Under the pieces are notes generated by a model that did no database searches, was not told the DNA's origin, and worked only from the letters and a program-made list of their open reading frames with translations. From positions 1 through 43,741 of the forward strand of contig NZ_SJEE01000042.1 in assembly GCF_006937785.1 (NCBI RefSeq): DNA of 43,741 nucleotides. Direction: 5' to 3'. This DNA is from Pseudanabaena sp. UWO311 (lineage in GTDB: Bacteria > Cyanobacteriota > Cyanobacteriia > Pseudanabaenales > Pseudanabaenaceae). Position 1 is the stretch's first letter, and each line of letters starts with the position of its first letter. The translations under genes and the position numbers were made by a program. This document shows positions 16,753 to 20,333 of the stretch, in pieces.

Positions 16753-16796
16753 AATCATTAATAAAGACGGCATAAATGCCGTCTTTATTAATGATT
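16753..16796. terminator. Palindrome covering the end of the pentapeptide gene
   Basis: It has 21-bp arms (aatcattaataaagacggca and onward) and an AA centre. The pentapeptide-repeat gene's stop (16788-16790) lies within it, so it may terminate both convergent transcripts. Confidence 0.75.
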
Positions 16797-17792
16797 ATGG
16801 ATCGAACCATCGGGCATAATCGTTCCAAACAAATTTGCTTCGGATAAACTAACTCCATTCAGATTGGCAAGCCGTAAATTAGCTTTAACTAAATTAGTAC
16901 CAATCAAAAAAGCAGCATCTAGCTTTGCTGAAACCAGTTGTGCTCCTGTCAAAATTGCCCCGTTTAAATTTGCATTACTTAAAATTGCATCACTTAAGAT
17001 TGTATCTTCCAAATTACTATCACACAGATCAGCATTGCTCAGAATTGCATTGCTCAGAACTGCATTTTTTAAATTTGCGTGCCTTAAATTAGCATTACTT
17101 AAATTGGCATTACTGAGAATTGCATCAGCTAAGTTAGCATGACAAAGATTAGCCTGATTAATAGCAGCGTTGCTCAAATCACATTCTTGCAAATTAGCAT
17201 TGTTCAGATTTGCGTTGCAAAGCTTTGAGTCCGATAAATTGCTATTACTAAGATCAGCAAATTCTAGATTTGCGTTAGTTAAATCACTGCGGTGGAGATC
17301 AGCATTTGTGAGATTAACATTGCTCAAAATGGCATTGCTTAAGTTTGTCTCACTTAAATTTGCATTGCTCAAATCACTTTCGTCTAAATCTGCACCACTC
17401 AAATTAGCACCATTAAAATGAGCTTTAGTAAGATCGGCTCCTTGTAAGTTTGCCATACTCAGATCGCATCTTTCTAAACAAGCTTCTCTTAGATGAGCTT
17501 TGCTCAAATAGGCTCCACTCACCTCAGCATCTTTAAGATTTACTTTATACAAATCTGCTTCTCGCAAATTTGCTTTCACGAGATCAGAACTACTGAGATT
17601 CGCACCTAATAAATTAGCGTTACTCAAATTTGTCCAGCGCAAGTTTACTCCACTCAAATCTGCTTCGCGGAGATTGGCACGTCTTAAGTTAGTACCACTC
17701 AAATTAGGGATAATCTCAGGATTTTCTAGTCGCCATCTATTCCAACTGGCTGCTCCTTGTTTCAGTATCGCAAGATGTTCTGAGTTTCCCAT
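16788..17792 (-). CDS. Pentapeptide-repeat protein
   Basis: Nearly the whole 334-residue protein (about 28-325) is built of A(D/N)LXX pentapeptides such as ANLRE, ADLSG, VNLRW and ANLLG. These fold as a right-handed quadrilateral beta helix. The N-terminal MGNSEHLAILKQGAASWNRW is the conserved leader seen in many cyanobacterial members. There is no signal peptide, transmembrane helix or fused domain, so it is probably cytosolic. Cyanobacterial pentapeptide proteins mostly lack known function; a few related proteins mimic DNA. Internal repetition makes strong antisense frames that are not genes. Confidence 0.92.
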   Translation of the reverse strand: MGNSEHLAILKQGAASWNRWRLENPEIIPNLSGTNLRRANLREADLSGVNLRWTNLSNANLLGANLSSSDLVKANLREADLYKVNLKDAEVSGAYLSKAHLREACLERCDLSMANLQGADLTKAHFNGANLSGADLDESDLSNANLSETNLSNAILSNVNLTNADLHRSDLTNANLEFADLSNSNLSDSKLCNANLNNANLQECDLSNAAINQANLCHANLADAILSNANLSNANLRHANLKNAVLSNAILSNADLCDSNLEDTILSDAILSNANLNGAILTGAQLVSAKLDAAFLIGTNLVKANLRLANLNGVSLSEANLFGTIMPDGSIHNH

Positions 17793-18146
17793 ATGTCTCT
17801 TCCTTTTACACCATGCTCTCGTTTAGATGTAGCGGTTATTTAGAGGGTTATACTCCCATTGATTATCACTTGGCGAAACAAGAAAAAGTCAGAAATTAAG
17901 GTATTGCTGTCGCCAGTTTTATTACAATGCTTTTCGCTCAATCCAAAACAAAAAGAAGTTATTTGTTTACATGTATAGCAATGCAAGTTTTGCTTAGTAC
18001 ATAAAAACCAAAAGATAAGTGGCGGCGCTTTGCGCTGTCACTTATCTTTTGGTTTTTGATTTGTCCTAGCTATGTTTTGCATTGCAATATAGCAATGCAA
18101 AAGGAGTATACTCTAACTAGCAATAGCTATAAACCTGTGAAGAATT
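17793..18146. other. Divergent intergenic region
   Basis: It separates the pentapeptide gene (leftward) from the AAA+/iron-sulfur gene (rightward) and must hold both promoters. It contains the family-1 palindrome at 18003-18057 and a direct repeat of tatagcaatgcaa (about 17974 and 18090). No coding frame is supported. Confidence 0.6.
18003..18057. repeat. GC-core palindrome, family 1 (AAAAACC ends)
   Basis: It has 26-bp arms with few mismatches around GGCGGCGC-TTT-GCGCTGTC. It is in a divergent promoter region, not behind a gene. Confidence 0.85.
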
Positions 18147-20333
18147 ATGTCTTCCAATTATTCTGAAACTTCTTTAGAGTGGATACAAGATCGATCGCAG
18201 GTTTTGCAGCCCTATCTAATTACCAAGGCTGAGCGAGGAATTATTGGTAAGAGTCGCTATGCGATGAGGCTTCGTCAAGAGATTAAAAGTGCCAGTGAAG
18301 ATCGGCAACCAGTATTGATTCTTGGCGAACCTGGACTGGATAAAGATAATATTGCGGCTTTGATTCATTTTAATTCGGCATATAGACGGGAAGCGATCGC
18401 AAAAGTAAATTGCAGCCTTGTCCAAACCAGTGGTGCAGATTTATTTGGACGTGCAGATGGCAATCATGGGCTATTAACATATTTGGGAAAAGGAACTCTA
18501 GTTTTAAATAACATCCAAGAGCTACCCAATGAATTGCGCCCCCAGATTGTGCAGCTTCTAAAAAACGGAACCTTTAGACGAGTCGGAAGTAATGCAACCG
18601 ATGCGCCTTTAATCTGTGAATCGCGGATCATTATGGTCTCTGAAAAACGTCAATCTACCTGTGAGTCATATGTTAAACATTCGATCAAAGTTCCATCGCT
18701 GAGAGTGCGAAAAGCTGATATTAAACCACATGTGGAATATTACATTAGTTTGTTTTGTCGCGATCGCGGTATTCCTAAACCAACTATTACTGCTGAGGCT
18801 TTACGCAGTCTCCAAAGCTATGATTTCACAGGAAATTTAAAAGAACTACAATTATTGGTGGAACGAGCAATATTACAGTCACAGGGTGCGCCATCGCTAA
18901 ACGAATCAGTGTTTTGGTCAACCCAACCCAAGGGTAAAAAGTTTCGCTTTAATCTACTCAATGCCTATCCTAATCTACGTCGGTTCCTACGTAGTGAATG
19001 GTTTCCCGATCGCCTTAACTATGGATTTACGTTCACTTTTTTTGCGATCGTCGTTGCCATACTGTTTTTAGCTCCTCAAACTCGCGATCAAAATATTGCG
19101 CTTAATTTTTTTTGGGCATGGTGGTGGCCATTAATTTTAATTAGCTTTCCCTTTGTAGGAAGACTATGGTGTTCTATCTGTCCGTTTATGATTTATGGAG
19201 AGGTAGTGCAGAAGCTCTCTCTATGGCTATTTCCACGACAGCTTAAACATTGGAATCGAGATATTTCTGAACGTTGGGGTGGATGGTTTTTATTCGGTCT
19301 ATTTGTGCTGATCTACTTATGGGAAGAGCTTTGGGATTTACAAAATACTGCCTATCTTTCTGCATATTTATTGCTATTGATTACGGCTGGAGCGATGATC
19401 TGTTCGCTGATTTTTGAACGCAGGTACTGGTGTCGCTATCTCTGTCCCATTGGAGGGATGAATGGACTATTTGCAAAACTCTCAATGACGGAATTACGCG
19501 CTCAACAAGGAACTTGTTCGGCTGAATGTACGACCTATCAATGCTATAAAGGCGGCGTGAAAAAAGGCGAAGGTCTAGAGACAAATGGATGTCCGCTTTA
19601 TTCTCATCCTGCTCAATTACAAGATAATCGCGACTGTGTGCTATGTATGACTTGCCTCAAGGCTTGCCCCCATAGGTCTGTAGAGTTTAATCTTCGTCCT
19701 CCCGCAATTGAACTATGGACAACCCATGTACCACGCACCTATGAAGTTGCTTTGCTCTTGTTACTGCTTGGTGGTGCATTTTTGCATCGCTTACCAGAAA
19801 TCACCTCGTTTTTTGGTTTGCCGTCTATTACGGAAGCATTCTTTCCCCATTTGGCAGTATCTCTACTCATTCTGATTGTCGCTGCGGTAATTCCCTTAAT
19901 TACTTATGGGATCATGCGATTGCTCTACTTTCTCACAATTGTCTGGAGAAAGAATTGCGAAGACAATCAGCTTCCTTTTAGTATTACAGCCTGTAAACCC
20001 AGACCATTTATCCAGCTCGCCTATGGATACTTGCCATTAGTTCTAGGCGCAAATCTAGCGCATTATTTACGTCTATTTCTCCAAGAAGCAGGTCGGGTAT
20101 TGCCAGTTACTTGGGCGACTTTTGGGCTGGATGGTTCGACATTGCCAATTTTTATTGCTCATCCTGCGGTAATTTCCTTTTTGCAAGGAACCACATTAAT
20201 TTTCTCTGTGCTTTTGTCATGGGTGCTAACGCAAAAGATTGCCAGACAGCCTTGGCGATCGCTGATACCTCAACATTTGAGTGCGGTCATTTTAGCGATC
20301 GCTTTGTGGCTAGTTATAGTTTTCCCTACTTAA
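18147..20333 (+). CDS. Degenerate enhancer-binding-protein AAA+ domain fused to a NapH/NosR-like membrane polyferredoxin
   Basis: This is a 728-residue fusion. Residues 30-245 align along their length with the NtrC-type AAA+ domain (GIIGKSRYAMRLRQEI, GTFRRVGS, YDFTGNLKELQLLVERAIL). The Walker A site is G-E-P-G-L-D-K-D instead of GExGxGKE, and Walker B D-E is N-N (121-122). The GAFTGA loop is replaced by a short ADGNHG and no HTH follows. From about 290 come some ten hydrophobic segments with WCSICP (341-346) and WCRYLCP (428-434), cysteines at 457, 461, 466 and 482, and C497-C500-C503-C507-P, a [4Fe-4S] motif. This matches the NapH/NosR/CcoG-like quinol-to-cluster electron-transfer class. A redox-sensing or electron-input role is inference. 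Confidence 0.85.
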   Translation: MSSNYSETSLEWIQDRSQVLQPYLITKAERGIIGKSRYAMRLRQEIKSASEDRQPVLILGEPGLDKDNIAALIHFNSAYRREAIAKVNCSLVQTSGADLFGRADGNHGLLTYLGKGTLVLNNIQELPNELRPQIVQLLKNGTFRRVGSNATDAPLICESRIIMVSEKRQSTCESYVKHSIKVPSLRVRKADIKPHVEYYISLFCRDRGIPKPTITAEALRSLQSYDFTGNLKELQLLVERAILQSQGAPSLNESVFWSTQPKGKKFRFNLLNAYPNLRRFLRSEWFPDRLNYGFTFTFFAIVVAILFLAPQTRDQNIALNFFWAWWWPLILISFPFVGRLWCSICPFMIYGEVVQKLSLWLFPRQLKHWNRDISERWGGWFLFGLFVLIYLWEELWDLQNTAYLSAYLLLLITAGAMICSLIFERRYWCRYLCPIGGMNGLFAKLSMTELRAQQGTCSAECTTYQCYKGGVKKGEGLETNGCPLYSHPAQLQDNRDCVLCMTCLKACPHRSVEFNLRPPAIELWTTHVPRTYEVALLLLLLGGAFLHRLPEITSFFGLPSITEAFFPHLAVSLLILIVAAVIPLITYGIMRLLYFLTIVWRKNCEDNQLPFSITACKPRPFIQLAYGYLPLVLGANLAHYLRLFLQEAGRVLPVTWATFGLDGSTLPIFIAHPAVISFLQGTTLIFSVLLSWVLTQKIARQPWRSLIPQHLSAVILAIALWLVIVFPT

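Follow-up and report, generated by a model that had tools for sequence, protein, structure and literature searches.

What does a protein do that begins with the ATPase domain of a sigma-54-dependent transcription activator and ends in a membrane module carrying redox-type cysteines? The question is raised by an open reading frame at positions 18147-20333 of the window, by which we mean the whole 43,741-nucleotide stretch of DNA analysed (contig NZ_SJEE01000042.1 of Pseudanabaena sp. UWO311, assembly GCF_006937785.1). The frame is a genuine gene, present as a single copy in its own genome, in which a sigma-54-activator-type AAA+ domain stands ahead of a NapH/NosR-like membrane module. We favour, with moderate confidence, the view that its product is a membrane electron-transfer protein of NapH/NosR-like design, in which a pseudo-AAA+ head on the cytosolic side serves to assemble or gate the redox module. 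Support comes from the union of the parts in one reading frame, from residue conservation, from selection and from the gene context of F2, one of three clades of relatives (F1, to which the window protein belongs, F2 and F3); from these we infer the iron-sulfur (Fe-S) clusters, the topology, the quinone link, the direction of flow and the gating. The best-supported interpretation is a redox protein whose head is of a nucleotide-binding or scaffold-like kind, close to one reading offered in an earlier note made from the sequence of this DNA. The features of the gene are as follows.

18147..20333, plus strand: whole gene, 728 amino acids; pseudo-AAA+ head and membrane module with Fe-S-type cysteines; clade F1
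18240..18641, plus strand: AAA+ alpha/beta domain of the sigma-54-activator type (PF00158), residues 32-165; Pfam E 3e-16
18324..18347, plus strand: variant Walker A motif at residues 60-67, reading GEPGLDKD; Lys66 kept in 157/157 relatives
18441..18497, plus strand: shortened stretch at the position of the GAFTGA contact loop of activators; 19 residues against 27 in the control activator L050
18498..18512, plus strand: Walker B remnant LVLNN, residues 118-122; catalytic Glu missing in 157/157
18702..18887, plus strand: AAA+ lid (AAA_lid_14), residues 186-247; no helix-turn-helix (HTH) family found after it
18945..20330, plus strand: membrane module, residues 267-728; about nine predicted membrane helices; stand-alone homologue in Deinococcus
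19170..19184, plus strand: CxxCP motif (C342, C345) at the end of helix 2, predicted to be cytosolic from lysine plus arginine counts; invariant
19431..19448, plus strand: CxxxCP motif (C429, C433) after helix 4; invariant
19515..19595, plus strand: atypical four-cysteine motif C-x3-C-x4-C-x15-C-P (457, 461, 466, 482); invariant; probable ligands of a putative [4Fe-4S] cluster
19635..19670, plus strand: ferredoxin-type motif CxxCxxCxxxCP (497, 500, 503, 507); invariant; probable [4Fe-4S] ligands

Pfam assigns Sigma54_activat to residues 32-165 (E 3e-16, 60 bits against a cut-off of 20.2), AAA_lid_14 to residues 186-247 (E 1e-10) and Fer4_5 to a best stretch at residues 406-445 (E 1.8e-9), while Fer4 models match the region of the ferredoxin-type motif only below their own cut-offs. 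The same scan detected neither a DNA-binding or HTH family nor a flavin mononucleotide (FMN)-binding family in the protein up to E 1. In an AlphaFold model of the full protein (mean predicted local distance difference test, pLDDT, 83.8), most of the AAA+ part exceeds 85, and VIA-align fits residues 27-259 to activator AAA+ domains, with FleQ as the top match (Z 24.8, root-mean-square deviation 2.3 over 227 residues) and NtrC1 and PspF also matched. The E value of 3e-16 and the structural Z of 24.8 exclude a chance resemblance and bear out the activator fold that the earlier note had read in the N-terminal part; the Pfam scan agrees with its reading that there is no HTH.

Relatives were compared in an alignment of 157 distinct members (120 F1, 20 F2 and 17 F3), with clade labels given by identity to three seeds each, without a tree; the members are related, and the counts are not independent events. 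Nearly all were chosen as reading frames of at least 600 amino acids with the membrane motif (from 550 in the first set), so fusion in all 157 arises partly by construction. Left out were exact duplicates (L001, L051, L070, L076, L135, L137, L138, L141, L143 and L144), broken or cut genes (L040, L049, L145, L146, L157, L158, L177 and L182, and those of genomes G044, G074, G080, G282 and G329), the full-length F3 gene L153, L132 (apparently the same record as L037), L147 and the non-family sequences L048 and L050. L048 and weak matches in G014, G020, G021 and G078 are separate cyanobacterial frames of 924-953 amino acids that weakly match the NapH-like stretch.

Matches at E <= 0.001 occur in 62 of the 97 genomes comprising the window's own and those of relatives, some of them weak or fragmentary. 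Across the phylum, 166 of 386 genomes match: 104 lie within the window's class, own genome included, and 62 outside it, where the matches are weak (best E 9.5e-19) and, among those listed, are confined to one of the two parts, in most cases the NapH-like one and otherwise the AAA+ one. Among named genomes at least 565 relatives were found, and the best 80 loci all bear cyanobacterial names. A fusion peculiar to one genome or created by assembly is excluded, both parts sharing one open frame in many genomes. Non-photosynthetic members of the phylum were considered as carriers of the fusion and set aside: among the matches listed they have separate NapH-like frames (mostly about 430 amino acids) or activator-like domains; full reading of two activator-like cases showed tandem activators that have the Asp-Glu pair and near-canonical loops. 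An apparent gene fission in G410 (L157/L177) consists of overlapping frames with an alignment that runs on where the frame changes, and we read it as a probable frameshift, the assembly being fragmented. Two separate, intact genes, a finding in close relatives that the earlier note had named as refuting its reading, were not clearly seen in cyanobacteria, partial matches in G355 (511-725), G018 (1-42), G216 and some further genomes lying outside this check; the one membrane-only protein, from Deinococcus, is no close relative.

How much of an activator is left in the head? The Walker A lysine is invariant in all 157 aligned relatives. It is followed by Asp in 119/120 F1 and 17/17 F3 members and by Thr in all 20 F2 members; an acidic side chain at this position does not by itself signal a defect, because the control activator L050, taken from one fetched contig, reads GETGTGKE with Glu in that place. 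The preceding Gly is retained in 37/120 F1, 20/20 F2 and 1/17 F3 proteins. Judged from the alignment, the Asp that replaces it in the GEPGLDKD of the window (shared by 15 F1 members) is a real departure, yet 35/120 F1 members read an exact GEPGLGKD and F2 has an intact Walker A (GxxGTGKT or similar), so the Walker A degeneracy described in the earlier note is not universal in the family. The Walker B Asp is present in 1/120 F1, 10/20 F2 and 12/17 F3 members. The catalytic Glu is found in none of the 157, and the window has NN in place of the Asp-Glu pair, as had been noted. Between LFG and GT, 151/157 relatives have 18-21 residues, five F3 proteins have 11 and one F2 protein has 26; the window has 19 against 27 in the normal activator, from which we conclude that the GAFTGA loop is gone, and no GAFTGA-like string occurs in the 157. 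By pattern, an arginine-finger string of the FRxDLYYRL type is likewise found in 0/157 and present in L050. A universal loss of Walker A and B therefore describes the catalytic Glu, but not the Walker A of F2 or the Walker B Asp of some F2 and F3 members; homologues with intact motifs exist in the sense that F2 keeps Walker A, with neither the Glu nor GAFTGA in any of the 157.

On this evidence, the loss of catalysis and of sigma-54 contact is common to all three clades, with the phosphate-binding Lys kept. The claim that every working part has been lost is right for the parts serving hydrolysis and transcription, but not for the lysine, beside which Asp is a conservative residue. With Lys kept and Glu lost in all three clades and the Mg-ligand Asp lost mainly in F1, the family offers a natural series of an AAA+ domain losing catalysis under selection. 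When the window is compared with 11 relatives from its genus or family, the ratio of nonsynonymous to synonymous substitution (dN/dS) is 0.045-0.092 for the AAA+ part (10 measurable pairs) and 0.062-0.182 for the membrane part, ratios that are rough since dS exceeds 1 in about half of the pairs. The low values indicate that the "dead" head is maintained by selection. A head that has lost catalysis and kept fold and Lys most likely serves in oligomerisation, as a nucleotide-occupancy switch, or both.

These data bear directly on whether the protein might be an evolutionary relic or a cryptic transcription activator. Its head is homologous to sigma-54 activators, but the purifying selection on the head, the missing contact loop and HTH family, and the failure to find a full sigma-54 in the 97 genomes searched make this very improbable. 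Sigma-54 (PF04552) was not detected in the window's own genome, as the earlier note had expected for cyanobacteria, but two of the 97 genomes have a partial match, covering 38 and 33 of its 160 positions, and one of the two exceeds the cut-off; the family was found in 4/14 control genomes. L163 and L164, from members of the phylum judged to be non-photosynthetic by kinship and genome size, are tandem sigma-54-type activators with a Walker B Asp-Glu and near-canonical loops, and their sequences hint that "no sigma-54 in cyanobacteria" may fail for the phylum as a whole. L050 (contig of G090, 3432 bases) is an ordinary sigma-54 activator in a fragmented cyanobacterial assembly and may be contamination.

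Compared with bacterial enhancer-binding proteins such as NtrC1, FleQ, PspF and NtrX, the window family shares the AAA+ fold with its lid, an acidic residue after the Walker A Lys and a GN..EL segment near sensor II, whereas a GAFTGA-like loop, the Walker B Asp-Glu pair and, by pattern, an FRxDL-type segment are missing, neither an HTH family nor a full sigma-54 was found, and its AAA+ domain is fused to membrane helices. The best sequence match in the PDB set is VpsR (1e-19 over residues 21-246), which we take to be an activator-family protein that works without sigma-54 and is soluble and DNA-binding; in contrast to VpsR, no DNA-binding domain was found in the window protein. In our reading the head derives from a sigma-54 activator; catalysis, the loop that contacts sigma-54 and the domain that binds DNA have gone, and the fold and the nucleotide-binding Lys remain.

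What is this head attached to? Twelve cysteines of the membrane module (342, 345, 429, 433, 457, 461, 466, 482, 497, 500, 503 and 507) are invariant in 157/157 relatives, as is the Walker A Lys. The first membrane-side motif is CX2CP and the second CX3CP, whereas the NapH/NosR-like superfamily has two CX3CP motifs; the earlier description of CxxxCP motifs was correct for the second (C429, C433), but not for the first (C342, C345). One of the two four-cysteine motifs is of canonical ferredoxin type and the other atypical, and the protein probably holds two [4Fe-4S] clusters in addition to the CxxCP and CxxxCP motifs. TIGR02163 (NapH/MauN) matches the membrane part at E 7.9e-13, and NapH/MauN and NapH are the nearest curated models; the likeness to NapH and NosR is a resemblance of working parts and no membership. 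According to the available part of PMC5928378, quinol oxidation has been proposed for the membrane segments of NapH, the CX3CP motifs are important to the working of both NapH and NosR, and eight Fe at most have been found per NosR.

Membrane-adjacent cysteine motifs together with ferredoxin-type cysteines are common to the window family and to NapH/MauN and NosR/RdhC-like proteins (NapH, NosR and PceC being compared as far as the available part of the source describes them). The window family differs from them in the CxxCP form of its first motif, the atypical first cluster motif, extra C-terminal helices and the cytosolic AAA+ head, with a cyclic-nucleotide-binding domain (cNBD) added in most F1 and F2 members, and the FMN-binding extracytoplasmic domain of NosR/RdhC was not found in the window protein. 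Modelled alone, the membrane module reaches pLDDT 85.7 and a predicted template modelling score of 0.85. Its model helices fit nine membrane spans and hydropathy alone picks eight, instead of the ten helices first proposed, and span 7 (621-658) depends on the AlphaFold model. Lysine plus arginine counts are 7, 3, 13, 4 and 3 in the predicted inner loops and 1, 0, 1, 1 and 0 in the outer ones, with loop boundaries placed by hand from the model; on this model the head and the cysteine motifs would lie on the cytosolic side. The best VIA match of the membrane part (Z 8.2, 118 residues, root-mean-square deviation 6.5) is uninformative.

In the mechanism that we favour, the redox cysteines would face the cytosol, the electron path would run between the plastoquinone pool and a partner in the cytosol, the head would assemble or gate the redox module, and a cyclic nucleotide monophosphate (cNMP)-binding-type domain would provide an extra input in most lineages. 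The same parts could instead form a membrane redox sensor, in which the Fe-S module reads the quinone pool or the state of cytosolic reductant, the pseudo-AAA+/cNBD head signals to a partner and electrons serve as signal only. The order of cNBD, AAA+ domain and module mirrors that of activators with the DNA-binding part swapped, and LdpA, a [4Fe-4S] protein, senses the plastoquinone redox state in cyanobacteria according to the available part of the redox review PMC13421787, which however makes no mention there of AAA, cyclic nucleotides, NapH or polyferredoxin. Twelve invariant cysteines in a NapH-like layout suit a conduit better than a single switch, and F1 has no conserved partner gene; we regard the sensor as a less likely alternative.

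Several observations weigh against an electron-transfer protein with a gating head. The transfer role draws on sequence, context and models. In F1, the Gly preceding the Walker A Lys is lost in 83/120 members and the Mg-ligand Asp of Walker B in 119/120. TIGR02163 scores 48.5 bits against a curated cut-off of 213.05, the Fe-S loop (residues 452-509) is predicted at pLDDT <50, and no solved PDB fold matches the membrane model at E <= 0.001, which does not make the membrane fold new. Finally, F1 has no widely conserved neighbour: the best family recurs in 16/80 loci, some of which lack full flanks, so that a conserved F1 operon is ruled out and no partner is indicated. The electron-transfer reading draws further support from the membrane module, which is able to stand alone, as in Deinococcus, and from F2, which lies beside cysK and, in about half of its loci, near photosynthetic electron-transfer and sulfide-associated genes.

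The stand-alone module was found by tblastn of plasmid records on plasmid pDFI1 of Deinococcus ficus. This '4Fe-4S binding protein' (WP_027463891.1, 452 amino acids) is 30% identical to the window protein over residues 269-716; all 12 cysteines can be aligned and CTTxxCYKG is shared, whereas it has no AAA+ domain or cNBD, its first cluster motif is one residue shorter and Phe replaces the Pro after the second membrane-side motif. Its gene shares 4 bases with the end of another gene, whose product by eye is His-rich and apparently anchored. Such a neighbour would suit a factor that acts in the assembly or reduction of a metal or cofactor, rather than a conduit of energy metabolism; roles of this kind have been proposed for CcoG, MauN and NosR. 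So would six F3 loci of one genus (L155, L158 and L168-L171), in which an SDR-like gene precedes in 6/6 in a tight row and a short gene follows within 25 bases in 4/6, of the FUR family in L155. These contexts are lineage-specific, however, the F2 context points to sulfur and no neighbour family recurs widely beside F1, leaving an assembly factor a doubtful explanation.

Does gene context say more about F2? In this clade, cysK follows downstream on the same strand within 1.2 kb in 17/23 assessable loci, 14 of them within 200 bases; 24 loci were examined, one stops at a contig edge, and L145, L146, L147 and L182 were counted as F2 in this tally from earlier identity and context. F2 loci in which that cysK was not found are L143, L160, L161, L167, L179 and L180. 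At least one other marker lies nearby in 13/24 loci and none in 11/24, the markers, some identified by eye, being psbA, petC, Tll0287-like, DUF4079, DsrE, rhodanese, SQR-like, CoADR-like, DUF302, 2-nitropropane dioxygenase-like and MBL genes. We read this set as probably sulfide-related. In F1, cysK occurs within the flanks of 2/80 loci, adjacent in neither, and the other markers in none; the window has no cysK or other F2-type marker. The sulfur context suggests what F2 does, and no sign was found that F1 shares it. Proximity of sqr and psbA is reported in the available part of PMC5061849.

One might accordingly propose a sulfur-compound redox protein, F2 and by descent F1 moving electrons for sulfide, sulfite, persulfide or polysulfide and feeding or protecting CysK. 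The cysK and marker counts of F2 speak for it, as does the rise of cysK2 transcripts with polysulfide in Synechococcus PCC 7002 (available part of PMC12466478), but the six assessable F2 loci without cysK, the 11 without other markers and the near-absence of such genes beside F1 and in the window speak against it, and we consider it unlikely. On two plasmids, pPg_03 of Pseudanabaena galeata (L132) and plasmid2 of Aulosira laxa (L133, typed as conjugative by PLSDB), F2 and cysK stand with psbA, petC and sulfur-related genes, possibly as a mobile sulfide-adaptation island. F2 proteins are annotated generically as 'cyclic nucleotide-binding domain-containing protein' or 'nitrogen assimilation regulatory protein'.

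The fusion of AAA+ and membrane parts stands, but the two-part description given in the earlier note leaves out a third element of most F1 and F2 relatives, a cNMP-binding-type domain, which heads these proteins and is missing in the window's genus. An N-terminal stretch of at least 140 residues, with room for such a domain, is present in 102/120 F1, 19/20 F2 and 0/17 F3 members, counted from open-frame lengths with unconfirmed starts. Short F1 members number 18: the window protein itself, 14 relatives from its genus or family (L002-L015), L044, which also belongs to that family, and two from elsewhere, L162 and L166. PF00027, the family of Crp-type cyclic-nucleotide-binding domains, scores over its cut-off in 6/8 proteins scanned, the other two being L044, a family member, and L048, a non-member; in contrast to most scanned relatives, the window protein has no Pfam match to it, and when the domain of one relative was compared with L001-L015 by tblastn, the sole match was weak (L005, E 0.023) and away from the gene. 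The residue aligned with the Glu of CRP that we take to contact cyclic AMP is Glu in 1/100 F1 and 3/19 F2 domains, and since it is mostly missing, cyclic-nucleotide binding is doubtful. L032 and L033 are F1 proteins of 1121 amino acids with two tandem AAA+ domains (Pfam being run on L033), which entered the alignment with one copy each; the first copy of L033 reads GEAGVGKV and LVLDH, thus keeping the Walker B Asp.

A more specific and speculative version, which we consider rather improbable, is a nucleotide-gated electron valve, in which a pseudo-AAA+ ring would hold several membrane Fe-S modules and ATP/ADP occupancy, with the degenerate cNBD, would open or close flow between plastoquinone and cytosol. 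If it were true, photosynthetic electron flow would be coupled to energy charge through F1, the same valve would have been recruited for sulfide in F2, where it works with CysK, and an enhancer-binding-protein ring that steers a redox protein in place of RNA polymerase would give that ATPase family a new kind of output. For the electron-transfer protein that we favour, a head that gates flow would likewise connect nucleotide state directly with the quinone pool of photosynthesis.

A widespread cyanobacterial membrane protein, which bears only generic annotation names in the records consulted, joins a transcription-activator family with electron-transfer families, and F2, often within apparent sulfide-adaptation gene islands, bears on anoxygenic photosynthesis. 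Among the records listed from the open-access literature we found no published description of the architecture, most subscription papers lying outside that search, in keeping with the earlier note's suggestion of an undescribed combination; under the terms used, the available parts of PMC5061849, PMC8002359, PMC8651085 and PMC12466478, which deal with sulfide and cyanobacteria, do not mention the protein. Slr0593 of Synechocystis, given in the source excerpt available as a 'cAMP binding membrane protein', could, by name only, be an orthologue.

Two further elements lie close to the gene. A hairpin-like inverted repeat directly upstream (window 17986-18110) has 62 matches on both strands of the own genome, many of which pair up as arms of a single copy, and looks like a miniature inverted-repeat transposable element or a repetitive extragenic palindrome-type family. 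On the minus strand, window 16788-17792 encodes a pentapeptide-repeat-like protein with A(N/D)L repeats in its translation.

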